From an uncultured Acholeplasmatales bacterium (lineage in GTDB: Bacteria > Bacillota_I > Bacilli_A > Acholeplasmatales > Anaeroplasmataceae): a stretch of 44,042 bases of DNA. The stretch lies in the NCBI GenBank assembly GCA_944323055.1, contig CALUQZ010000013.1, positions 1-44,042 of the forward strand, read 5' to 3'. Of the stretch, positions 27,000 to 39,941 are shown piece after piece. A program made the position numbers and the translations under genes. Every line of letters begins with the position of its first letter. Position 1 is the stretch's first letter. A model generated the notes under the pieces. The model was not told the DNA's origin. It did no database searches and was given only the letters and a program-made list of their open reading frames with translations.

Positions 27000-28646
27000 T
27001 TATTCAAAATATATAGTTATCGTTGTCCCAACATCTAAAACACTTTCTAATTCAACTTTATAATTGAACTTTTCACAAATATGTTTAACAATAGCTAAAC
27101 CTAAACCGGTACCACCTGTTTCTTTTGATTTAGCTTTATCAACGCGATAAAACCGTTCAAATACCCGACTTTGATCATTGTAAGATATACCGATACCCGT
27201 ATCTTTACAAACAAAATGTTTTTCATCTAAAATTAATACGATAGAGCCATTTTCTTTATTATATTTAATAGCATTATCGATTAAATTAGAAAATAAAGTT
27301 TCAATTTGTTCTTTATTGCAATAAAGAGTTGTATCTTTAATATCTAAACTTAAATTAATATTTTTATTATCAATGCGAGACTGATATCTATTAATAACAT
27401 CATATAATACATCACTAATTTTAATATCTACTAACTCATAAGTTTTAGAAAATTCTAAATTAGATAATTCAAGCATATCAATAATAATTTGATTCATTCT
27501 ATTAGCTTCTTTTAATATCTTTAAACTAGCATCTTTGATTTCTTTTTTATCTTCTATAATACCATTTAAAATCATTTGTTCATAACCTATTATAGTTGTA
27601 AGTGGACTTTTAAGCTCATGACTAGCATTAGCAAAAAAATCTTTTTTAATAACTTCCATTTGTTGTTTTTCTGTGATATCTTTTAATGAAACTAAAACTT
27701 GACAACTATTAAAAGGTATAATACTAACAGAATAATTTTTACTAGACATATTAATATTTAAAAATTCGTTTTTTCGCGTATCTATAGCATTTTTTATGGC
27801 ATTTAATAATGTTGTATTTCTAAATAAATACAAATAATTTTTTCCTATTATAGCTTCTTTAGTGACATTAAAAGCTTTCAATGTTTGATCATTTACTAAT
27901 GTTACAATTTCATTTTTTAATAAAATTAAGCATTCATCAATAGCTTGAATAATAGTTTCATTTTTTGTATTTTCTTCTTTTATTTGTCTTAATTTATTAT
28001 TAATTAAAACTTTAGCTGCTTCTATAACTTCTGGTAGTTTATCAATCGTATCAGCTTTAAACACAACCTCAGCATCAGCAATTAATGCCAAATCATTTAT
28101 TTCTTTTTCAATCGGTTTTAACATGCGTTTTGATAACAAATATAAAAATACTAAAATAATTAAATAAATAATTATTATACTTAATAATGCTCCAACCGCA
28201 AATACAACATTTCCTGTTGTAAAATAAACAGTATCAAATGAAACTCTTAAATAATAATCATCGATAAGCCTAGCTATATACATCATTTTATCATTTGTTG
28301 AACCAGATTTTCGAATAATAGCTTCACCTAAATTCATAATTTCTGGTCTATTTAAATGATTATCTAAATTATCTACTTGATATTTTAATTCAGAATCATA
28401 TACAACTTTACCGGTTAAATCAATAAAAGTAATCCGAAGATTATCATCTAATGAAACCATATAATTAGCAACATCTTCAAAGTTTTCATTCTCATAATGA
28501 CTTGTAGCTACATCTAAATAAATATTTATCTCTTCAATAGCTTTATTTTTATTTTCATTAGATATTAATCCTAAAGATATTGCATATAAAGCAAGTAAGG
28601 CAAGTAATGATATTAATGAAGAAAAAATTATCATTCTTTTTTTCAT
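27000..28646 (-). CDS. phoR: Phosphate sensor histidine kinase PhoR
   Basis: 548-aa membrane histidine kinase. TM1 is at about 5-28, an extracytoplasmic sensor (30-140, with ITFIDLTGKVVYDSE like the PhoR/WalK dCache-type) follows, and TM2 is at about 146-172. A HAMP-like linker leads to a PAS domain (about 230-320). HisKA has the phosphoacceptor His343 in ASHELKSPLTT. The HATPase has the N box NLIDNAIKY, G1 DTGIGI and G2 GGTGLGL. It overlaps phoB by 4 bp. Its position after pst-phoU and beside phoB is the main reason for naming it PhoR and not a related kinase such as WalK. Confidence 0.9.
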   Translation of the reverse strand: MKKRMIIFSSLISLLALLALYAISLGLISNENKNKAIEEINIYLDVATSHYENENFEDVANYMVSLDDNLRITFIDLTGKVVYDSELKYQVDNLDNHLNRPEIMNLGEAIIRKSGSTNDKMMYIARLIDDYYLRVSFDTVYFTTGNVVFAVGALLSIIIIYLIILVFLYLLSKRMLKPIEKEINDLALIADAEVVFKADTIDKLPEVIEAAKVLINNKLRQIKEENTKNETIIQAIDECLILLKNEIVTLVNDQTLKAFNVTKEAIIGKNYLYLFRNTTLLNAIKNAIDTRKNEFLNINMSSKNYSVSIIPFNSCQVLVSLKDITEKQQMEVIKKDFFANASHELKSPLTTIIGYEQMILNGIIEDKKEIKDASLKILKEANRMNQIIIDMLELSNLEFSKTYELVDIKISDVLYDVINRYQSRIDNKNINLSLDIKDTTLYCNKEQIETLFSNLIDNAIKYNKENGSIVLILDEKHFVCKDTGIGISYNDQSRVFERFYRVDKAKSKETGGTGLGLAIVKHICEKFNYKVELESVLDVGTTITIYFE

Positions 28647-29308
28647 AATTCTACCTTATAGCCTTTACCATAACTTGTTTTTATAAGATTTTCATCTGTT
28701 TTTTTACGTATAGACTTAATATGCATATCTAATGTTCTAGTTTCAAAACCATAATCAGTTCCCCAAACAGTTTCAAAAATCTCTTCTCTGCTTAAGACTT
28801 TACCGTTATTTTTAGCTAAATATAACAAAATGTCAAATTCTTTATTTGTTAAATCAATCTTCTTATCATTAAACATACACTGTCTTTTTAGCGGATCAAG
28901 CGTTAAATCTCTAAATACAAGCGGTAAACTCCGCTTTTTATGTCTTCTCAATTTAGCATTTACTCTAGACATTAATTCAAGTAAATCAAAAGGTTTTTCG
29001 ATATAGTCATCAGCTCCTAAATCAAGACCTTCTACCTTATCTACTAACATATGTTTAGCGCTGACAATTATGATATCAATATCATCATTGACCGCATCAT
29101 TTCGTACTTTTTTTAACAATTCAATGCCACTATAATCTGGCAACATTAAATCTAACAAAATAAGGTCTGGTTTAATTTGATTAAAGGCTCTTAAAAAAGA
29201 CTTTCCATTATAAAAAGTTTCAACTTGATATCCTTGTTTTGCTAAAGTTTTATTAATTATTTGGGCTATATCTTTATCATCCTCAATGGAATAGATTAAA
29301 AATGCCAT
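28643..29308 (-). CDS. phoB: Phosphate response regulator PhoB/PhoP
   Basis: 221-aa OmpR-family response regulator. The receiver (1-120) has the acidic pair Asp10/Asp11, phosphoacceptor Asp53 (LILLDLMLPD), SAK and EKPF. The winged-helix DNA-binding domain (about 128-221) has LTNKEFDILLYLAKN and VWGTDYGFETRTLDMHIKSIRKK. It should bind the TTTACA direct repeats upstream of pstS. It lies after phoU and couples to phoR. Confidence 0.92.
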   Translation of the reverse strand: MAFLIYSIEDDKDIAQIINKTLAKQGYQVETFYNGKSFLRAFNQIKPDLILLDLMLPDYSGIELLKKVRNDAVNDDIDIIIVSAKHMLVDKVEGLDLGADDYIEKPFDLLELMSRVNAKLRRHKKRSLPLVFRDLTLDPLKRQCMFNDKKIDLTNKEFDILLYLAKNNGKVLSREEIFETVWGTDYGFETRTLDMHIKSIRKKTDENLIKTSYGKGYKVEL

Positions 29309-29320
29309 AATATCACGCCC

Positions 29321-29959
29321 CTAGTATATTTTTTTATCTTTATAAAAACCACTTTCTATATAAATAACCCATTCAGCGATGTTAACTGAATGATCAGCTA
29401 TTCTCTCTAGATATTTTACAACTAAAGTAGAATAAATAGCAAATGGCAAATATGATTTATCTTCTATTTTTGCATGTGCTAATTCTTCAACAATCGCATC
29501 ATATCTTTGATCAACATAATCATCTGCATCAATAACCTCTTGTGCTGTTTTAGTATCAGCATTTATATAAGAATTAACCGCTTTTTTTAACATATCAATT
29601 ACAAACTGTGCTAAATTATCAATATTATCATGGTGTTTAGGGTCACCAGGTACTCCTTTTAATTTATTGCTGAAAGTTATGATATCTTCTGCGTGATCAC
29701 CTATTCTTTCAAGGTCTGTTACTAATTTTAAAATTCCTGTAACTTGTTTTAAATCTGATGCATAAGGTCTTTCTTTTAATAAAATATTTAAACACATCTC
29801 TTCAATTAAGCGTTCAAATTTATCTACAATGTCATCGTTAACAATATCATCAGTTTTACCTAAATAATTATTGATAGAAATATCAATATTATCAACAACA
29901 ACATCACTCATTTTTAAGACCATTTGTTTTAGATTATCAATTTCTGTTTCTAGTTTCAT
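29321..29959 (-). CDS. phoU: Phosphate-specific transport system accessory protein PhoU
   Basis: 212-aa all-helical protein made of two three-helix bundles. It restrains phosphate uptake and signals Pst activity to PhoR. Both halves carry the family's metal-binding helix pattern: LVTDLERIGDHAEDI and VVKYLERIADHSVNIAEW. I use the ATG at 29959 (4 bp after the pstB stop); an upstream TTG start four codons earlier sits only one base from GGAAGG. The paired ERIGDHA/ERIADHS motifs make the call secure. Confidence 0.95.
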   Translation of the reverse strand: MKLETEIDNLKQMVLKMSDVVVDNIDISINNYLGKTDDIVNDDIVDKFERLIEEMCLNILLKERPYASDLKQVTGILKLVTDLERIGDHAEDIITFSNKLKGVPGDPKHHDNIDNLAQFVIDMLKKAVNSYINADTKTAQEVIDADDYVDQRYDAIVEELAHAKIEDKSYLPFAIYSTLVVKYLERIADHSVNIAEWVIYIESGFYKDKKIY

Positions 29960-29963
29960 AATT

Positions 29964-30713
29964 CTAACCAAACCTTCCTGTTATATAATCTTCTGTTCGT
30001 TTGTCTTGTGGGTTTTTAAATAATTCAGTAGTATCGTTAAATTCTACCATTTCCCCTAATAAGAAGAAAGCTGTTTTATCAGAAATACGCGTAGCTTGTT
30101 GCATATTGTGAGTTACTATTACGATTGTATATTCATTTTTTAATTCCGCAATTAATTCTTCTATTTTTAAGGTAGCAATAGGGTCTAGAGCACTTGTAGG
30201 TTCATCCATTAAAATAACTTCTGGTTTCATAGCAATTGTTCTAGCTATACATAATCTTTGTTGTTGACCACCTGATAAGCCTAATGCATTATCTTTTAAA
30301 CGTTCTTTAACTTCTTCATACAAACTAGCCTTTTTTAATGAATCAATAACAATTTCTTGTAATTTAGCTTTATTTCTAATGCCACTACAACGAGGCCCAT
30401 AAGCTACATTGTCAAATATAGACATAGGAAACGGATTAGGTTGTTGAAAGACCATACCTACTTTAGTTCTTAAATCAATAGGATTCATCTCCCTGATATC
30501 ATAATTCTCTTTATAAAGAATTTCTCCATCAATTTTACAATTAGGAATTAAATCGTTCATTCGATTTAAACAACGCAATAGAGTTGATTTACCACAACCA
30601 GAAGGGCCGATAAAAGCCGTTACTTGATTTGTAGGGATATCTAAATTTACATCTTTTAAAGTGTGTTTTTCACCATAATAAAGATTAACATTTTTTATTT
30701 GAAAATCATACAT
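29964..30713 (-). CDS. pstB: Phosphate ABC transporter ATP-binding protein PstB
   Basis: 249-aa ATPase of the Pst high-affinity phosphate importer. Walker A is GPSGCGKST (34-42), the PstB-typical [10 protein letters not shown] follows, the Q-loop segment is [22 protein letters not shown], the signature is LSGGQQQR and Walker B is [13 protein letters not shown]. The NPFPMSI block and the length identify PstB over other ABC ATPases. It sits between pstA and phoU. Confidence 0.97.
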
Positions 30714-30716
30714 ATA

Positions 30717-32009
30717 TTATACCGCCATTTTATTTAATTTTTTAGATATTAATTTAATTAAAAGTGATAAAATTAAAACTACAATTAAAATAAAGATACC
30801 TATAGCTGATGCAGCTTCATAATTAGGATTTTCTTGATTAATAATAGTCCAAATATGAACTGCTAAAGAAGATGATGATCCTGTAACACTTATGTGATCT
30901 TGAATACTTGTTCCCATAACAAAAATTAAAGCTGCAGATTCACCAATTATTCTACCAATAGATAGTAATGTAGCTGTTAAAATACCAGGAATAGCATTAG
31001 GTAAAATTACTTTAAAGACAGTTTGAGTTTTACTAGCACCTAAAGCTAAACTAGCCATCGTGTATGAACGCGGTATCACTAATAAACTTTCACTAACAGT
31101 CTTAATTATAGTAGGTAACAATACTATTGTCATAGTGAAAGCACCAGCTAAAATACTATATCCTGATGTGTTAAATGTCGTATCACAAAAAGGAATGAAA
31201 ATTATTGCTCCACAAAAGCCAAAGATAATACTAGGAATACCACTAGTCATATCAATCATTGTTGTAATTATTGTCTTTATCTTACCTTCTTTAGCATATT
31301 GTGTCAAGAATATAGATGAAATTATCCCTATTGGTAAAGAAATTATTAAAGTTAATAAAATCAAATATAGAGTTGTTATTAAACTGCCACGGGCCCCGCC
31401 GCCACCAGTCTTACATTGCATTTGATTGATAATTGTTGCCGAATTTAAAGCTTCTGCCACTCTTTCGGCTCCTTTATTAGCTGCTGTTACTTGTGTGACA
31501 TTGTTATCATTTTTATAACGAATTGTATCAAGTCTATCGCCAACTTCTACCGTATAAGTACCATCACCATTAGTTTTCGTCGCATTTTTTAAAGGTGAGT
31601 TATCAGCAATCCAAGTCACAATTACACAATCCTCGTTAGCTGTATCAACTGAATCAGCAATTGTTATACCAAAGCGTTCAACGAAATAACTTCCTTCAAT
31701 ATTGGGGTTTGTAAATGTTAAATTAGAGTCATATTCTACTGTTATTGTATTTAATACTTCTTGATAATCATCAAACAATAAATTCAAAGAAAAAGCACTT
31801 GAACCTGTCATTAAGATATATATTATAATACCGCCTAATACTAAAACAATAAAAATACTAGATAAATAAGTTGGAATTAATTTTAAAATATCAAGAATTC
31901 TTTTTACCTTTAAATTCGATTCAATTTTAATATCTTTTGAAACAATTTCATTACTTGTAGTTACTTGATTGTCTTTAAGATTAACTTCTGGTTTATTAAG
32001 CTTGGTCAT
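30717..32009 (-). CDS. pstA: Phosphate ABC transporter permease PstA with an extra extracytoplasmic domain
   Basis: 430 aa, against about 280-300 for ordinary PstA. A cytosolic N-terminal extension (1-45) and TM1 (about 47-70) are followed by an unusually long extracytoplasmic loop of about 135 residues (75-207). The permease core resumes at SLITTLYLILLTLIISLP and carries the EAA loop LALGASKTQTVFKVILPNAIPGI and the IGRIIGESAALIF segment. Part of the loop looks PDZ-like: VERFGITIADS, IVTWIADNSPLKNA, VEVGDRLDTIRY, then a helix AERVAEALNSA. The order (strand, ligand-groove-like loop, SP-x-x-A turn, GD-x-I strand, helix) is what a PDZ fold shows. It overlaps pstC by 14 bp. Confidence 0.9.
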   Translation of the reverse strand: MTKLNKPEVNLKDNQVTTSNEIVSKDIKIESNLKVKRILDILKLIPTYLSSIFIVLVLGGIIIYILMTGSSAFSLNLLFDDYQEVLNTITVEYDSNLTFTNPNIEGSYFVERFGITIADSVDTANEDCVIVTWIADNSPLKNATKTNGDGTYTVEVGDRLDTIRYKNDNNVTQVTAANKGAERVAEALNSATIINQMQCKTGGGGARGSLITTLYLILLTLIISLPIGIISSIFLTQYAKEGKIKTIITTMIDMTSGIPSIIFGFCGAIIFIPFCDTTFNTSGYSILAGAFTMTIVLLPTIIKTVSESLLVIPRSYTMASLALGASKTQTVFKVILPNAIPGILTATLLSIGRIIGESAALIFVMGTSIQDHISVTGSSSSLAVHIWTIINQENPNYEAASAIGIFILIVVLILSLLIKLISKKLNKMAV

Positions 32010-32928
32010 AACGACAAATCACCTTCTTCACAAAAGATAAAATAACATTAACTATTAAGATAGTTACAATTAACAAAATACCTACACTAAATCTGATATC
32101 ATAAGCTATACCACTAGATTCATGAAGACCTAACATCATTGTTGATGTCAAAGTCCTAGATAAATCGAACAAATTAAAATTAGGTCCATCTACCACATTA
32201 CCACAAACAAGTGATACCGCTGTAGCTTCACCTAAGGCCCGGCCAACCCCTAAAATTAAGGCTGCCATTATACCAGATTTAGCTCCACCTAAAACAATCT
32301 TAAAATTAGTTTGAGTTTTACTAGCACCTAAAGCTAAGCTCGCTTCAATTAATGGTTTCTTTACTGCTTTCATACTAGTGATAGTTAGCATTGTTATAGT
32401 AGGAATCATCATAATCATTAATACAATAATAGTTGATAATCCTGATTTACCACCAGATGTTTGAATACCAAATAATTCAGCAAAATCTCTAACTAAAGGA
32501 TTTATAATACCCATACCAAAAAGACCAAAGATGATTGAAGGAATAGCTGCTAATAATTCAACGACATTTTGTAATATTAGAGCTAACCATTTTGGCGCAA
32601 TTCTTACGATAAATAACGCAGACAAAACAGAAATTGGCATAGCTATAATAGTTGCAATAGCCGTTAAATATATTGTATTAATTAAAGCTCCTAATGCACC
32701 ATAATTTAGGTCTGTCCAACTAGTAGATGTAATAAAAGTCACAAAACTAGCTTGACTTAACCTACCATCTACTTCTGGATAAGTATTTACAAATGGCCGA
32801 ATGCCTTCTATCAAAATAAATACTATAATAAACACAATTGATGAAGCTGCTAAAGCAGCTACTAATAAGAATAAAATTTGAAAAAAACGATCAAATACAC
32901 TTTTTCTTTTTGAAGCAGTTGTATTCAT
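31996..32928 (-). CDS. pstC: Phosphate ABC transporter permease PstC
   Basis: 310-aa membrane subunit with six predicted helices. The EAA loop is seen in LALGASKTQTNFKIVLGGAKSGI, after the TSMKAVKKPLIEAS segment. SIIFGLFGMG and GRALGEATAVSLVCGN are PstC-typical. I start at the ATG at 32928, preceded by AGGAAG. A frame extending to 32958 would need a TTG inside the U-tract of the preceding terminator. Read-through of that terminator from pstS supplies its transcript. Confidence 0.94.
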   Translation of the reverse strand: MNTTASKRKSVFDRFFQILFLLVAALAASSIVFIIVFILIEGIRPFVNTYPEVDGRLSQASFVTFITSTSWTDLNYGALGALINTIYLTAIATIIAMPISVLSALFIVRIAPKWLALILQNVVELLAAIPSIIFGLFGMGIINPLVRDFAELFGIQTSGGKSGLSTIIVLMIMMIPTITMLTITSMKAVKKPLIEASLALGASKTQTNFKIVLGGAKSGIMAALILGVGRALGEATAVSLVCGNVVDGPNFNLFDLSRTLTSTMMLGLHESSGIAYDIRFSVGILLIVTILIVNVILSFVKKVICRYDQA

Positions 32929-32957
32929 AATACACTTCCTAATCCTTAATATACGCA

Positions 32958-32978
32958 AAAAAGGCCTGAGGCCTTTTT
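32958..32978 (-). terminator. Internal terminator between pstS and pstC
   Basis: AAAAAGGCC-TCA-GGCCTTTTT (9-bp perfect stem) followed by T and GCG on the minus strand. It is typical of operons in which the binding protein is made in excess over the permease. Confidence 0.85.
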
Positions 32979-33001: not shown

Positions 33002-34927
33002 CTAACGAACGTCAGACCAACTTGTGATTTCACCACTAAAGATAGCTACAAGTAATTCTGGAGTAGCATTAGTTAAAACTGTATTTTCAGGGTTAACAAT
33101 AGCTACAATACCATCTTTACAAATCATACCATAAGTACCTTCAGCTGCTGGTTCATCACCTGTAAGTTCAATTTCTCTTGATAAGAAACCGATATGTAAA
33201 CTTGTTTGACTATCTTTGTCTGAACCTTGAGTACGTTTATATGCGTCACCTGAACCTGTATGATTATGAGATGCTACAAAACCACTTACTTCTTCAGAGA
33301 AAGCTTGTGTTAAAGCTTCAGCTATATTTTGTACTGATGTTGAACCACCTAAATTAATAGTAACTTTAGTTCCTGCTTCTGATAATGCTAATGCTTGTTT
33401 AACATCTGCATCATTAGCTTTTAAATCACTCCATAATTCTGCTGAATCTATATCGCCACCTGGCATTAAGATACCGTCATTTGCTTGTACTGTTGTAAGA
33501 CCAGCATCTGAGAACATATATTTAATGAAAGCACTAACCATTACACGTTCATTTTCTGACATATCACTATCTTGACGAACGATATAGTTAAAGTTACGAG
33601 ATAAACCATATGTGCCGTTTTGAACATTTTCAACTGAAGGAACAACACCATTATAATTTAATCCTTTAACATCATCTGATTCTAAAACTGAAGCTAATGA
33701 AGCATATCCAATACCATATGTATCATTAACAATTGAGTTCATCATATCGCCATTTGAACTAACAATAGCTGTTCCACTAGCTAATAGTTTATCATCTGAT
33801 TTTGCATCTTCATAACCAATAGTTGTGAAGAAACCATCACGTGTACCTGAAGTAGTATCTCTTGAATATACTTTAATTGCACCTTCAAATGGTTCATAAT
33901 CTTTAGCTGCTTGCCATGTTGTAATACCGCCAGTAAATAAAGCTACAAGTAATTCTGGAGTAGCATCAGTTAAAGCTGTATTTTCAGGGTTAACAATAGC
34001 TACAATACCATCTTTACAAATCATACCATAAGTACCTTCAGCTGCTGGTTCATCACCTGTAAGTTCAATTTCTCTTGATAAGAAACCGATATGTAAACTT
34101 GTTTGACTATCTTTGTCTGAACCTTGAGTACGTTTATATGCGTCACCTGAACCTGTATGATTATGAGATGCTACAAAACCACTTACTTCTTCAGAGAAAG
34201 CTTGTGTTAAAGCTTCAGCTATATTTTGTACTGATGTTGAACCACCTAAATTAATAGTAACTTTAGTTCCTGCTTCTGATAATGCTAATGCTTGTTTAAC
34301 ATCTGCATCATTAGCTTTTAAATCACTCCATAATTCTGCTGAATCTATATCGCCACCTGGCATTAAGATACCGTCATTTGCTTGTACTGTTGTAAGACCA
34401 GCATCTGAGAACATATATTTAATGAAAGCACTAACCATTACACGTTCATTTTCTGACATATCACTATCTTGACGAACGATATAGTTAAAGTTACGAGATA
34501 AACCATATGTGCCGTTTTGAACATTTTCAACTGAAGGAACAACACCATTATAATTTAATCCTTTAACATCATCTGATTCTAAAACTGAAGCTAATGAAGC
34601 ATATCCAATACCATATGTATCATTAACAATTGAGTTCATCATATCGCCATTTGAACTAACAATAGCTGTTCCACTAGCTAATAGTTTATCATCTGATTTT
34701 GCATCTTCATAACCAATAGTTGTGAAGAAACCATCACGTGTACCTGAAGTAGTATCTCTTGAATATACTTTAACATTTGATGATAAGTTAAAGCTACTAC
34801 CACCATTATTATTGTTGTTGTTATTGTTGTTATTATTGTTATTATTGTTGTTTTCTGGATTTGTACAAGCTACTAAACCTGTTGTACATAATAATCCTGC
34901 CGCAAGAGCAAGTAATACTTTTTTCAT
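33002..34927 (-). CDS. pstS: Phosphate-binding lipoprotein PstS, tandemly duplicated and permuted
   Basis: 641-aa lipoprotein: signal peptide with lipobox LVAC (Cys21), a run of 16 Asn (26-41), then two nearly identical 299-residue units. Each unit is in permuted order. The half that is normally C-terminal comes first (KVYSRDTTSGTRDG, GIGYASL, GVVPSVENVQNGTYGLSR), then the normally N-terminal half (NLGGSTSVQNIAEAL, GFLSREIEL, GIVAIVNPENT). The protein therefore reads C-N-C-N and stops at the hinge after SGEITSWSDVR. Phosphate-contact motifs GSTSV and SGTRD occur twice. The middle N-C pair (about 219-490) makes one ordinary PstS domain. The outer two halves could close a second one. Ordinary PstS has one domain of about 280-300 aa. 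Confidence 0.9.
   Translation of the reverse strand: MKKVLLALAAGLLCTTGLVACTNPENNNNNNNNNNNNNNNNGGSSFNLSSNVKVYSRDTTSGTRDGFFTTIGYEDAKSDDKLLASGTAIVSSNGDMMNSIVNDTYGIGYASLASVLESDDVKGLNYNGVVPSVENVQNGTYGLSRNFNYIVRQDSDMSENERVMVSAFIKYMFSDAGLTTVQANDGILMPGGDIDSAELWSDLKANDADVKQALALSEAGTKVTINLGGSTSVQNIAEALTQAFSEEVSGFVASHNHTGSGDAYKRTQGSDKDSQTSLHIGFLSREIELTGDEPAAEGTYGMICKDGIVAIVNPENTALTDATPELLVALFTGGITTWQAAKDYEPFEGAIKVYSRDTTSGTRDGFFTTIGYEDAKSDDKLLASGTAIVSSNGDMMNSIVNDTYGIGYASLASVLESDDVKGLNYNGVVPSVENVQNGTYGLSRNFNYIVRQDSDMSENERVMVSAFIKYMFSDAGLTTVQANDGILMPGGDIDSAELWSDLKANDADVKQALALSEAGTKVTINLGGSTSVQNIAEALTQAFSEEVSGFVASHNHTGSGDAYKRTQGSDKDSQTSLHIGFLSREIELTGDEPAAEGTYGMICKDGIVAIVNPENTVLTNATPELLVAIFSGEITSWSDVR
33044..33874 (-). 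repeat. pstS internal repeat, downstream copy
   Basis: 831 bp repeated with a period of 897 bp at 33941-34771. By eye I find only two base differences, both near the low-coordinate end (encoding NTV..TNA versus NTA..TDA). Flanks differ outside these limits. Confidence 0.9.
33941..34771 (-). repeat. pstS internal repeat, upstream copy
   Basis: Partner of 33044-33874. The 66 bp between the copies are unique and encode the linker around TWQAAKDYEPFEG. The near identity at third codon positions indicates a recent duplication or continuing gene conversion. Confidence 0.9.
34803..34850 (-). repeat. Asn-codon trinucleotide repeat in pstS
   Basis: Sixteen consecutive AAC/AAT codons encode the linker between lipobox and first domain. 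Length changes by slippage would stay in frame and alter only linker length. Confidence 0.9.
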
Positions 34928-34992: not shown

Positions 34993-35020
34993 TGTAAAGA
35001 AATTGTAAAAAAGTTGTAAA
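34993..35020 (-). promoter_or_regulatory. Pho box (PhoB/PhoP binding site)
   Basis: On the minus strand TTTACA occurs three times with exact 11-bp periodicity: TTTACA-N5-TTTACA-N5-TTTACA. This matches the Bacillus PhoP box (TTAACA-like repeats spaced by five). It lies 33 bp upstream of the -10 of pstS. A further TTTACA at 35049-35044 is out of register. Confidence 0.88.
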
Positions 35021-35088: not shown

Positions 35089-38000
35089 TTAAATTTCTTT
35101 TATAACAATTTCTCCATTTTCATCATATGTCCAGTACTTACCGGCATCTATAGGATTTTCATTATAAATATAAATATTATCATTAGTTAAATTCACTTCA
35201 TTTACTAGACACAAATGATCAATGTCAGCACTTGTCAAGAACGAACTAGGGATAGTTTCTACTTCACTTAAAATAACTAAATAATCTAAGGTAATACCTT
35301 TAAACATTTGATCATCTAAAACACTCTCATTTGTTATAGTCACTTTAGATAAATTTTCTGGCATATAATCAGCTTGCGAATTATTACTAATAGCTCCAAA
35401 GATATAAGCAAAATATTCATTATTAGTTTCACTACCGCCAACAAAAGGTAAAGTCATTTCTTCAATATCTGCACAATTTCTAAACGCTCCTCTTGCAATT
35501 GATGTAACTGTATCAGATACAAAAACATTAATAAGGTTCGTATTTTCAAAAGCATTAGCTTCTATCGTCAATACACCTTCACCAATAATTACTTCTTCAA
35601 TAGGGGTATTAATAAAGAAAGACTCAGTAATGTTAGGAGTATAAATAATAACTTTTCTCAAACTATCTAGAACACTATTATTATCTTTATCATTACTTGA
35701 ATAATAAAGACCTAATCTACTTAAATTAAACTCTCCTATTAAAGTTAAAGTCTCTACATCTAGAATTTCTACAAAATAATCACTAGTAGCTATTACATCA
35801 TTATCTAATATAACATTTTTGATACTATATGAATATCCTCTACTAACAGTAAATGTATCTTTAGATATATAACCACCATTAACAATTAAAGTATCTAATT
35901 GTCTATTGCTAATGATTGAGCTTAAACTTGTAGTATCTAAACTGTCTTTAGCTATAAATGGTAAGGTTAGATTATTTAGACTATTCATAGTACCAAACCC
36001 ACCAGTAGGATAAGATATTAGTGTATCTGGAATTACTAAATCAGTTATGTTACTTTTACTAAACGCATAATTACCAATCGTTTCAAGAGCATTAGGTAAT
36101 GTCACTTTACTAACTGTAGAATTATAGAATAAGTATTCTGGAATAGCTTTTAAACTATTAGGCAAAACTACTTCAGCTATCTCACAATTTTCAAAAGCTT
36201 CTTTTCCTATTTCTAATAAAGTATTTGGTAAACGTAATTCTCCTATTGTACTATTTTCAAAAGCTCGTTCGCCTATTGAAGTGACACCATCAGGTAAAAT
36301 CATTTTGCCAATTTCACTATAACAAAAGGCTTCATCAACAACACTACTAAAATTGCCTTCAAAAATAATTTCTAAAGCTGTAATATTACTAAAAATGTCT
36401 GGCAAAGTATTATAATCTCCTGCAATAGTTAAAGTCCCTATTTCAGCTAAATATAATATTCCACTATCTAAACTTTCTACATATGGCATATATAAATTAG
36501 ATAAAGTAGCATTGTAGAAAGCATAACTCTTAATAACCTTTACACTATTTGGAATATTAAGTGTAGTTAAATTAATACTATCAAAGGCATACGTACTAAT
36601 TGTTTCAAGTCCTTCATTTAAAGTAACACTTCTTAAATTAAAATCAGCAAAAGCATAAGCCCCTACCTCTTTTGTGCCTTCAGGTATTACTAAATCTATA
36701 ACTTCTTGATATTGTCCATCAATTTTAAAGAAAAAATGTAATACATCTTCATGCATTGAAGATGAACGTTCTATTGTTAAATAATCAGATATATCGCCAT
36801 CATAAAAAACATTAGGATAATAACTTTCATCACTAGAATTTAAATAAAAAGCTGAACTACTTACGCTCTCTAAAGTGTTAGGTAGATAAAGATTATCAAA
36901 ATATGTTTGATAAAAAGCCTCATAGCCTAAATGTTTAGCCTTTGTCAAATAAAGGTCACCAATTAGTTTTTCAGTAAACCAACCATTTTGATATCTATAT
37001 CCAGAAAATAAATAATTTAAATAAGCATTACTTTTATCGTCAATAGTTGAACCTAAATAAGGAATTTTTAAAATATCTAGATAAACATTTTTTAAGATAC
37101 ACTCACCAATATAGCTAACATCACCATTAATATATAATTCATCTAGACTAGAATCAGCAAAAGCGTAATCATCAATTGTATCTATATTGTTTAATTCTAA
37201 TACTTTAATATTAGTATTTCTAATTGCATAACTACCTATATAATCAAGGTCATTATTAATTGTTAATGTTTCTAAACTCTCTAGTCCACTAAAAGCAGAA
37301 TCACAAATACTCTTAACATTATTTAGAACAATATTTGTAATATTAGCACGACTAAATGCATTTTCATAAATAATACCTCTATCAACTTCTACATAACTTA
37401 AAGAAGGTAGAGATTCATAAGACGAATCACCAATCAAATATAATAAATTAGCACTTTCAAGCTCTTCTTCACTAGCACTATCAATACTTGTAATTTCTTT
37501 AGAACCTAAAAATGGTATTTTTAAACTTTCTAAAAGAGAACTATCATATAAAATACTAGCACCTATACTAGTCACCGAATTAGGAATCGTTAAACTTTTT
37601 AAATAGTTATAGGCAAAAGCTCTATTACCAATACTTACAAGAGTGCTTGGTAAAGTAATATCTGAAATATATGAACTTTCAAAACTATTATCACCTATTT
37701 CTAAAAGCCCTTCAGGTAAAACAAGAGGAGCTATAATTTGTACATATTCAAAAGTGCTATCGCTTATTACTTTTAAAGTTGAAGGGAAAGAAACATAATT
37801 AAATTTAGTATGTAAAGGCTCACTTCGATAAATAGATGTAATACCTTCACCTATAACTAAATCAACTGATACTGTAGCACTATCACTATAAATAGCACGA
37901 TATAATTCCATATAAACATCAATATCTAAAATCTTAGCTAAATCAGCTGTGCCATTACCAGTAATTTCAACGACAAGTCTATCATTATCTCGCTTAAAGG

Positions 38001-39864
38001 TATAATTAATATTATCTTCTTCTACTGATGAATTTCCACTATGAACTAAAACTTTAGTTTCATAATAATTACCAACTGAATCATATAAACTAATATTAGA
38101 AATACTGCCATTTTCACTATTAGAAAGGGAAAGAACTTCTGTTTTATAATCATATATAAAAGAACCATCACTATAAATAACTTTGATCGACACAATTGAA
38201 TCTGTAGAATAGAAATCTTGCAAGATTTCAACACTTTCTACTTCTTTACTATCTAAATTTCTAGTGTCTTTAATATATTCAATTCGCTTAAAATCTCTAT
38301 TAATTTTAATTAATACATCGTCATATTCATAAATATATTCTTGACTAGTCTCAACATAATCTGGAAAGTTTTCTTCGAAACTAGAAATTAAATAATATTC
38401 ATCTTTCAACAATTCTTCAGCAAGTTTTTCAATCTTCCAAGGTTCTTTTAAATTAGACCATAAACTATTATTAAAAACAAACCCTATCAATACTATTCCA
38501 CCAAGAACTATAAAGGTAGTTGAAGTTCTTAAAATAGAAATAAGACTCTTTTGATAATAAACTGGTTTATTTATTGCTTCTTCCTTAATCACAACTTCTT
38601 TTTTAGCTTCTTTTACAGCTGCTAAAGTTGAACGATAATGAGTTTGACTAATCTTCCATCTCTTAATTCTACCAGGTAAAAATAGAATAAAGATCCCAAA
38701 TGTTGGAATACAAAGTAACAACCAAATAATCCATTTACCTATTAATTTAGCCCCATTACCTTTAAATATTAATCTTTGCCCATCATAAATTGTATGATTT
38801 ATTTTATAACCATATTTCCAACATGTAGTAAAAGGAACTAATATAAAAATAGTACAAATATTTAAAATAAAACAAGCTATTTTTAGTAATAAATTAACAA
38901 TGAAAATGCCTGTATAATCGCCTTTTTCATCCGTCTCTATACCTTTAAAATGTGTATGTTTAGCTACCCACTTATTAATTCTATTAGGTATAAAGAAAGC
39001 ATAAATACTAAAAGTAATAACACTTAAAAGTATCCATAAAACCCATTTACCAATTAATTGACCACCATTACCATCAAAATACATGGCTTTGCCATCATAT
39101 TTAGTATGTTTTACTTCTCTACCTATTTTCATACATAACACAAACGGATAAGCAAAACCTAAAGTAATAGCTAAAATAAATCCTCTACCAATTTTAGCAA
39201 AGAAAGCTGGAATAGCATGATCATCATAATAACTTTTCGTACTAATATCAACACTATCATCTTTTTCACTACTTGGTTCTGTTATTGGTACAACTATCGC
39301 CGTTAAAGCTTCACTATCATTTTCTAAATAAGCATTATTTAATTTACTTATTAAATCATTTTTTACTTCGACAGGAAGTTCACTATTCTTTATTTCTTTA
39401 TACTTTTTCCCAACATCTTTAATAAACTTACTATATTTACTGCCAAGTTTATGTAAAACGCATAAAATAACAACTACAACTAATAATACTGCACCAGTAA
39501 TAATAAGAATTCTTTTTTCTTCTTCAGGTAAAGGTGACTGCGGAAGAACTGATGTTAAAATAATAGCTATAATTATTCCTACAACTGTCATTATTGAAAG
39601 AACTAAAATATAGATATTAAACCCATTACCTATTCTTTGCCTTTTAATTTTATTTTTAGTAATTACTAAAAATAATAATATTGGCATAAATATTATTAAA
39701 GAACTATACATAGCTAAAACATTATATAATGTTTTGTGATTAGGAAATGTTGTATAATCAATTATAAATGGAGCGACTAGAATCCCAATTACAAATATTA
39801 ATAATAAAAGCCTGCCAAATGTTGAATTTATTTTATAAAATCTTCTCGCCCTTTTGACTTTCAC
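35089..39864 (-). CDS. Membrane-anchored BspA-type leucine-rich repeat protein with two YjgN/DUF898-like units
   Basis: 1591 aa. Residues 1-155 hold about four membrane helices. A cytosolic stretch is followed by two similar membrane units (about 225-310 and 330-415), each with HTxYDG, GNG..LIGKW, then a helix pair ending in IN(K)W/IKRW. This layout resembles duplicated YjgN/DUF898-type modules. One more helix (about 445-465) leads to a large external part. From about 650 onward there are many BspA-type LRR units (pattern LxLPxSLxxIGxxAFxxC; for example SIGERAFENSTI, LEIGKEAFENCEI), interrupted by YxGS-type insertions. I choose the GTG at 39864, eight bases after AGGAGG, over a TTG two codons earlier. 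BspA LRRs commonly bind host or bacterial surfaces; the role here is inferred. Confidence 0.85.
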   Translation of the reverse strand: MKVKRARRFYKINSTFGRLLLLIFVIGILVAPFIIDYTTFPNHKTLYNVLAMYSSLIIFMPILLFLVITKNKIKRQRIGNGFNIYILVLSIMTVVGIIIAIILTSVLPQSPLPEEEKRILIITGAVLLVVVVILCVLHKLGSKYSKFIKDVGKKYKEIKNSELPVEVKNDLISKLNNAYLENDSEALTAIVVPITEPSSEKDDSVDISTKSYYDDHAIPAFFAKIGRGFILAITLGFAYPFVLCMKIGREVKHTKYDGKAMYFDGNGGQLIGKWVLWILLSVITFSIYAFFIPNRINKWVAKHTHFKGIETDEKGDYTGIFIVNLLLKIACFILNICTIFILVPFTTCWKYGYKINHTIYDGQRLIFKGNGAKLIGKWIIWLLLCIPTFGIFILFLPGRIKRWKISQTHYRSTLAAVKEAKKEVVIKEEAINKPVYYQKSLISILRTSTTFIVLGGIVLIGFVFNNSLWSNLKEPWKIEKLAEELLKDEYYLISSFEENFPDYVETSQEYIYEYDDVLIKINRDFKRIEYIKDTRNLDSKEVESVEILQDFYSTDSIVSIKVIYSDGSFIYDYKTEVLSLSNSENGSISNISLYDSVGNYYETKVLVHSGNSSVEEDNINYTFKRDNDRLVVEITGNGTADLAKILDIDVYMELYRAIYSDSATVSVDLVIGEGITSIYRSEPLHTKFNYVSFPSTLKVISDSTFEYVQIIAPLVLPEGLLEIGDNSFESSYISDITLPSTLVSIGNRAFAYNYLKSLTIPNSVTSIGASILYDSSLLESLKIPFLGSKEITSIDSASEEELESANLLYLIGDSSYESLPSLSYVEVDRGIIYENAFSRANITNIVLNNVKSICDSAFSGLESLETLTINNDLDYIGSYAIRNTNIKVLELNNIDTIDDYAFADSSLDELYINGDVSYIGECILKNVYLDILKIPYLGSTIDDKSNAYLNYLFSGYRYQNGWFTEKLIGDLYLTKAKHLGYEAFYQTYFDNLYLPNTLESVSSSAFYLNSSDESYYPNVFYDGDISDYLTIERSSSMHEDVLHFFFKIDGQYQEVIDLVIPEGTKEVGAYAFADFNLRSVTLNEGLETISTYAFDSINLTTLNIPNSVKVIKSYAFYNATLSNLYMPYVESLDSGILYLAEIGTLTIAGDYNTLPDIFSNITALEIIFEGNFSSVVDEAFCYSEIGKMILPDGVTSIGERAFENSTIGELRLPNTLLEIGKEAFENCEIAEVVLPNSLKAIPEYLFYNSTVSKVTLPNALETIGNYAFSKSNITDLVIPDTLISYPTGGFGTMNSLNNLTLPFIAKDSLDTTSLSSIISNRQLDTLIVNGGYISKDTFTVSRGYSYSIKNVILDNDVIATSDYFVEILDVETLTLIGEFNLSRLGLYYSSNDKDNNSVLDSLRKVIIYTPNITESFFINTPIEEVIIGEGVLTIEANAFENTNLINVFVSDTVTSIARGAFRNCADIEEMTLPFVGGSETNNEYFAYIFGAISNNSQADYMPENLSKVTITNESVLDDQMFKGITLDYLVILSEVETIPSSFLTSADIDHLCLVNEVNLTNDNIYIYNENPIDAGKYWTYDENGEIVIKEI

Positions 39865-39941
39865 TGCCAAATCCTCCTTTTATAATTAGATGCTTTAAAA
39901 TAAAAAATATTCATATTATTTTAATTTTTTACTATACATCA

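Follow-up and report, generated by a model that had tools for sequence, protein, structure and literature searches.

The window, meaning the whole 44,042-nucleotide stretch of DNA analysed, belongs to a 48-contig draft genome of 1.62 Mb (G000) and carries a complete pstSCAB-phoU-phoBR cluster, headed by pstS and with all genes on the same strand (Table 1). Profile and genome searches of the contigs of G000 detected no second pstS. The pattern TTTACAN5TTTACA, which underlies the direct repeat ahead of pstS, has two overlapping matches there with a period of 11 bp, against 0.10 expected by chance per window, and 62 of the 120 loci examined contain it as well. The repeat is closely similar to the Pho-box of S. 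pneumoniae, TTTACACAATCTTTACA (PMC4913102). Together with the pst/pho gene context, this Pho-box-like repeat points to Pho-type control of pstS, and thus to phosphate-starvation-regulated uptake. The hairpin between pstS and pstC is listed on the + strand by the scan, with its T run read on the - strand, and may be a partial terminator favouring PstS over the membrane parts. The only Pfam match in PstA is BPD_transp_1, from residue 226 on, and the insert between TM1 and this permease domain resembles a PDZ domain slightly (VIVTWIADNSPLKNAT...GDRLDTI). Upstream of pstS, positions 35089-39870 (- strand) encode a protein of 1593 aa in which membrane/DUF898-like segments precede BspA-type leucine-rich repeats.

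Table 1. Features of the pst/pho cluster of G000, segments of its PstS (C, second PstS half; N, first PstS half) and the PstS of G070. Positions are those of the window unless another locus is named.
Feature	Position	Strand	Basis
Pho-box-like triple direct repeat TTTACA-N5-TTTACA-N5-TTTACA	34993..35020	-	66-93 bp upstream of pstS start
PstS lipoprotein signal peptide, residues 1-20, lipobox LVA-C, lipidated Cys21	34868..34927	-	sequence
PstS poly-Asn tether, 16 AAY codons, residues 26-41	34805..34852	-	sequence
PstS C1 (RDTTSGTRDGFF ... NDGIL), residues 52-188	34364..34774	-	HMM segmentation
PstS C-to-N linker of module 1, conserved W, residues 189-222	34262..34363	-	
PstS N1 (GGSTSV ... FLSRE ... 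FTGGITTW), residues 223-338	33914..34261	-	HMM segmentation
PstS N-to-C inter-module linker QAAKDYEPFEGA, residues 339-350	33878..33913	-	
PstS C2, residues 351-487	33467..33877	-	HMM segmentation
PstS C-to-N linker of module 2, residues 488-521, no difference from module 1	33365..33466	-	
PstS N2, residues 522-637; diverged from N1 over the last 28 codons	33017..33364	-	HMM segmentation
Hairpin in the pstS-pstC gap, with A and T tracts, AAAAAGGCCTCAGGCCTTTTTT on - strand	32958..32978	.	consensus match only
pstC	31996..32958	-	TIGR02138 above cut-off
pstA, ~130-aa insert after TM1	30717..32009	-	best match TIGR00974, just under cut-off
pstB	29964..30713	-	TIGR00972 above cut-off
phoU	29321..29971	-	PF01895
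phoB/phoP-type response regulator	28643..29308	-	
phoR-type histidine kinase with PAS domain	27000..28646	-	
G070 PstS, cut inside C half, pstC-like ORF directly after	L042, 513-1457	-	

pstS is a single ORF of 641 aa (33002-34927, - strand) that contains a tandem duplication in frame, with the period of 897 bp given in the initial annotation. At this offset, positions 33079-33876 are identical to 33976-34773, 798 bp without any mismatch, and the longer stretch 33044-33876 (833 bp) differs from its copy only at 33070 and 33078, so that the earlier description, copies of 831 bp with two differences, was right to within 2 bp. Beyond the repeat, divergence is abrupt at the 5′ side of the gene and gradual at the 3′ side. 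The two encoded modules differ at 12 sites, 11 of them within the last 28 codons.

The order of segments in the protein is signal peptide, lipobox LVAC, 16 Asn, C, linker, N, 12-residue linker, C, linker, N and stop. PF12849 covers residues 219-474 (5e-43) and TIGR02136 residues 218-476 (222.5 bits, cut-off 206.6), each as one normal N-to-C stretch. At the DNA level, TIGR02136 additionally matches on either side of this central stretch, with its positions 162-283 ahead of it (a C-type fragment) and 34-160 behind it (an N-type fragment), and the C-N-C-N order first proposed from the letters is recovered by the central match and its two flanking fragments. The motifs RDTTSGTRDGFF, GGSTSV, TGSGDAY and FLSRE each occur exactly twice in the 641 residues, and the two complete sets of binding residues supposed earlier are therefore present. 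The signatures GGSTS, GSG, SR and R..SGT, which make up the phosphate site in this family, vary little or not at all among 13 permuted modules. With its TIGR02136 and PF12849 matches, these signatures and its pstC, pstA, pstB and phoU neighbours, the protein belongs to the PstS family, and high-affinity phosphate binding would be its expected function. The break point is in the loop after FSGEITSW, where ordinary PstS has W..VGGxDxP before the SGTR strand; this loop presumably sits just inside lobe 2. The break had been placed at the interlobe hinge: its position near FSGEITSW holds, but it falls not in the hinge strand but one element later, in the W..VGGxDxP loop. The G000 PstS is a real, in-frame, doubled and circularly permuted protein. 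The AAC/AAT codons of its poly-Asn tether, which follow the lipid anchor, form an in-frame trinucleotide array that could change length without a frameshift, and congeners carry other low-complexity tethers in its place.

In the family and order, the same pstS slot is usually occupied by a single SP-C-N protein (signal peptide, C, N) of ~320 residues. Such proteins are found in the pstS-pstC-pstA slot across the order and class, with the adjoining pstC checked for 16 loci. Among 108 proteins with both halves, 87 are C-N, 12 are N-C, seven are C-N-C-N, one is C-N-C-N-C-N and one is c'-N-C'; as this sample was picked by similarity to the query, the counts are not unbiased frequencies. Retention is patchy, with a match to the G000 PstS absent from 36 of the 55 family genomes, including all eleven of genus g5. 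That a single-domain PstS could be permuted, as guessed earlier, is supported by the form that fills the slot in most relatives. The view that the layout arose only in this gene is not supported, since the permutation long predates the doubling and is the usual form in related genomes.

The claim that no permuted PstS is known is not supported either, as a structure with the same order has been solved. A profile of the permuted module matches PDB 4H1X (S. pneumoniae PstS2) as one continuous stretch, 3-282 to 8-264, whereas the ordinary PstS structures 4gd5, 4q8r and 4exl match it as two swapped stretches. Because 4H1X is matched end to end, a permuted PstS is already in the structure database. 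No paper calling S. pneumoniae PstS2 or 4H1X permuted was found in the literature searched, and nothing relevant on permuted or tandem PstS was found in the library searched. The 4H1X protein shares the C-N order and the break point (it ends FSGKLTTWDK and begins GTIEVISRENGSGTR) but has one module per chain where the G000 PstS has two; the latter is thus a variant of the 4H1X type. Ordinary PstS (TIGR02136 / PF12849; 4GD5, S. pneumoniae PstS1 4EXL) has the family membership, phosphate-site signatures and operon role in common with it, but is an N-C single domain with the hinge loop W..VGGxDxP and a short C-tail.

A search of related genomes, which the initial annotation had suggested, found C-N-C-N PstS in seven or more species belonging to four genera (G000, G032, G033, G069, G130, G141 and G142). 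G032 and G033 belong to the same genus as G000, and G141 and G142 are a genus pair that both carry the tandem. All tandem relatives have comparable inter-module linkers, of 12-24 aa. In G142 (L027/L077) a frame change interrupts the first C half but the rest is intact, which could be either a sequencing error or the decay of one module. A three-module permuted PstS, in one frame of 910 residues, is found in another family of the class (G403, L078, 508-3237, + strand), and has Pro/Glu-rich spacers at the N-to-C junctions, between the C-N units. Two other frames considered as tandems were rejected: G210 has two adjacent permuted genes instead, and G200 two adjacent N-C genes. Several contigs end in or beside pstS, namely L018/L023 (G036), L076 (G134), L072 (G139) and L074 (G096), as expected if extra tandem copies broke the assembly.

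It is very improbable that the doubling in G000 is an assembly artefact, that is, a single C-N pstS or a strain mixture assembled twice in a draft. The genome is in 48 contigs and the repeat is perfect over 798 bp, and in G036, of the same genus, a contig ends inside pstS. However, the copies diverge from each other at their 3′ ends and are joined by an in-frame linker in one ORF with an undamaged frame, and the architecture is shared, with diverged copies, by the congeners G032 and G033 and by the single-contig genomes G069 and G142. As these two single-contig genomes also carry tandems, an artefact is unlikely as a general explanation. Since the 798-bp repeat exceeds short reads, assembly may account in part for the copy number seen in G000, which could be higher than two, and for the perfect identity of the copies.

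Synonymous divergence is unevenly distributed between the copies. In 28-codon estimates that are rough and near saturation in places, dS of the last 28 codons versus the rest is 0.20 vs 0.00 in G000, 0.69 vs 0.01 in G032, 1.23 vs 0.13 in G033 and 2.10 vs 0.02 in G141. The interiors of these four tandems contain identical runs of 425-798 bp, a length reached by 0 of 1000 mismatch shuffles. We read these tandems as old, with interiors homogenised by gene conversion or unequal exchange, and part of the perfect identity in G000 could stem from assembly. Divergence at silent sites in the 3′ ends weakens the view that all tandems are recent duplications, each specific to its species. In G130 the modules have a dS of 0.90 with dN/dS of 0.10, and in G403 a dS of 0.52-0.57 with dN/dS of 0.13-0.21; silent sites have diverged while the protein is conserved, which argues that these modules are under constraint and hence maintained. 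The whole-module dN/dS of 0.70 in G000 is based on 12 differences and says little.

These values bear on whether the doubling is a recurrent neutral duplication without a function of its own, gained and lost by recombination. Near-identical copies from the same species cluster in the tree, tandem versus single requires about six changes on it, at least four of them forced, and a perfect direct repeat of 0.8 kb should recombine readily, all of which would fit such turnover. It nevertheless appears rather unlikely, given the maintained modules of G130 and G403, the age of the 3′ ends of the copies (dS 0.2-2.1) and the presence of the tandem in both G141 and G142.

The modules could pair in two ways. 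In the initial annotation, N1 and C2 formed an ordinary central PstS domain, while C1 and N2, at opposite ends of the chain, closed on each other as a second. N1, linker and C2 do give one continuous match to the normal-order model, at 12 aa the N-to-C linker is about as long as the hinge loop in ordinary PstS (9-10 aa), and the same contacts are expected from either pairing. However, C-N alone is complete in relatives (87 loci) and in 4H1X, and the C-to-N linker, including its W motif, is as conserved in tandems as in single-module forms. The N-to-C joints are variable, with the Pro/Glu-rich spacers of the triple falling there, and the last 28 codons of N1, beside this joint, have drifted from N2. 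The complete C-N proteins, the conserved W linker and the positions of the spacers disfavour a middle domain with closed outer halves, which is improbable. The pairing C1-N1 and C2-N2 is preferred: C-N would be the folding unit, since in most relatives and in 4H1X it makes up the entire protein, the linker within it is conserved and the spacers of the triple lie between C-N units. AlphaFold models of one module and of the mature protein, made with two aligned sequences each, had mean pLDDT of 39.9 and 40.9 and are used for no claim.

We thus favour, with a probability of about 0.78, a PstS with two tandem permuted modules and two sites serving one PstCAB, which would have arisen by permutation followed by in-frame duplication, with recombination or conversion between the copies. 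C1-N1, the 12-aa linker and C2-N2 would be held on a lipidated Cys with a poly-Asn tether and feed one PstC/PstA/PstB. Each module would close on one phosphate independently, and with C-N as folding unit there would be two independent phosphate sites per lipid anchor. Two sites per chain may place more loaded binding domains near the transporter. In GlnPQ (PMC8025302) a 14-residue linker joins two binding domains, each of which binds independently of the other with its affinity unchanged, which makes GlnPQ a reasonable model, by analogy, for the 12-residue linker here. The likeness, on our side judged from sequence, lies in two binding domains on one chain, joined by a short, flexible stretch (14 aa in GlnPQ, 12 aa here). 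In GlnPQ, however, the domains are part of one chain with the membrane subunit, have different specificities and no permutation is described for them, whereas the G000 PstS is a separate lipoprotein gene, with pstC as the next ORF, and its modules are near-identical. It may work like GlnPQ but is not a member of that type.

As to origin, an ordinary N-C PstS would have been permuted to C-N early in the group. In several lineages the C-N unit would then have been duplicated in frame, with recombination or gene conversion keeping the copies alike, and trimming of a tandem could yield C-N, N-C (as in three relatives) or possibly another order (as in G070). Permutation by duplication has been described (PMC3320104), and in the circularly permuted DNA methyltransferases duplicated and permuted forms of one family are regarded as steps (PMC5944983). 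The present case differs from the methyltransferases in that the units doubled in the tandem were permuted already, there is also a triple, and the original order has apparently been regained in some lineages.

Three family members, G011, G029 and G030, have the N-C order. In the tree they fall within a 15-row clade with permuted forms (support 100/96), and no bootstrap tree unites all N-C forms. An AU test rejected the union of the three with ordinary N-C PstS at p = 0.035, a moderate value. Their C-tails are SWEEIKNSNKDFKELCSK or similar, the W-containing C-to-N linker of permuted forms, whereas ordinary PstS C-tails are 3-8 residues long. Two of the three have FDTSK at the N-to-C junction, a motif that lies between lipobox and C in permuted forms. 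They therefore appear to represent a reversal to N-C nested deep inside the permuted clade, for which the simplest route would be a C-N-C-N gene losing its outer C and N; the vestigial linker in their tails supports such descent from a tandem.

A third order, c'-N-C', is found in G070, with the last 35 C residues, N, and the first 100 C residues (Table 1). A derivation by trimming of the tandem in G069, a congener, was considered but rejected, as the sister of G070 in the tree is the single C-N gene of G057, not the tandem of G069. One pst operon slot is thus occupied by C-N, C-N-C-N, C-N-C-N-C-N, N-C and c'-N-C' proteins, with the tandem and both orders in one orthologous group. We lean slightly towards the reading that the order of PstS halves is fluid and reversible, and that long-lived converting tandems act as a hub giving rise, time and again through recombination and trimming, to C-N, N-C, triple and new permutant forms.

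Permutation of PstS as such is not new, given 4H1X; the doubling is the unusual part. As far as searched, tandem and triple PstS and the apparent return to N-C are undescribed. Profile-based annotation misses both doubling and permutation, and labels the protein simply PstS. Circular permutation is usually inferred from its end points. Here, permuted, doubled, tripled, apparently reverted and re-permuted forms of one binding protein occupy one operon position in related species. For permutation by duplication, this is a natural series of unusual completeness. With all these forms at one position, the duplication-and-trimming route and its reversibility are directly testable. Natural PstS chains that carry two or three near-identical sites also offer a handle on the role of multiple binding domains in ABC importers. 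If tandems do act as such a hub, circular permutation would have been undone in nature.
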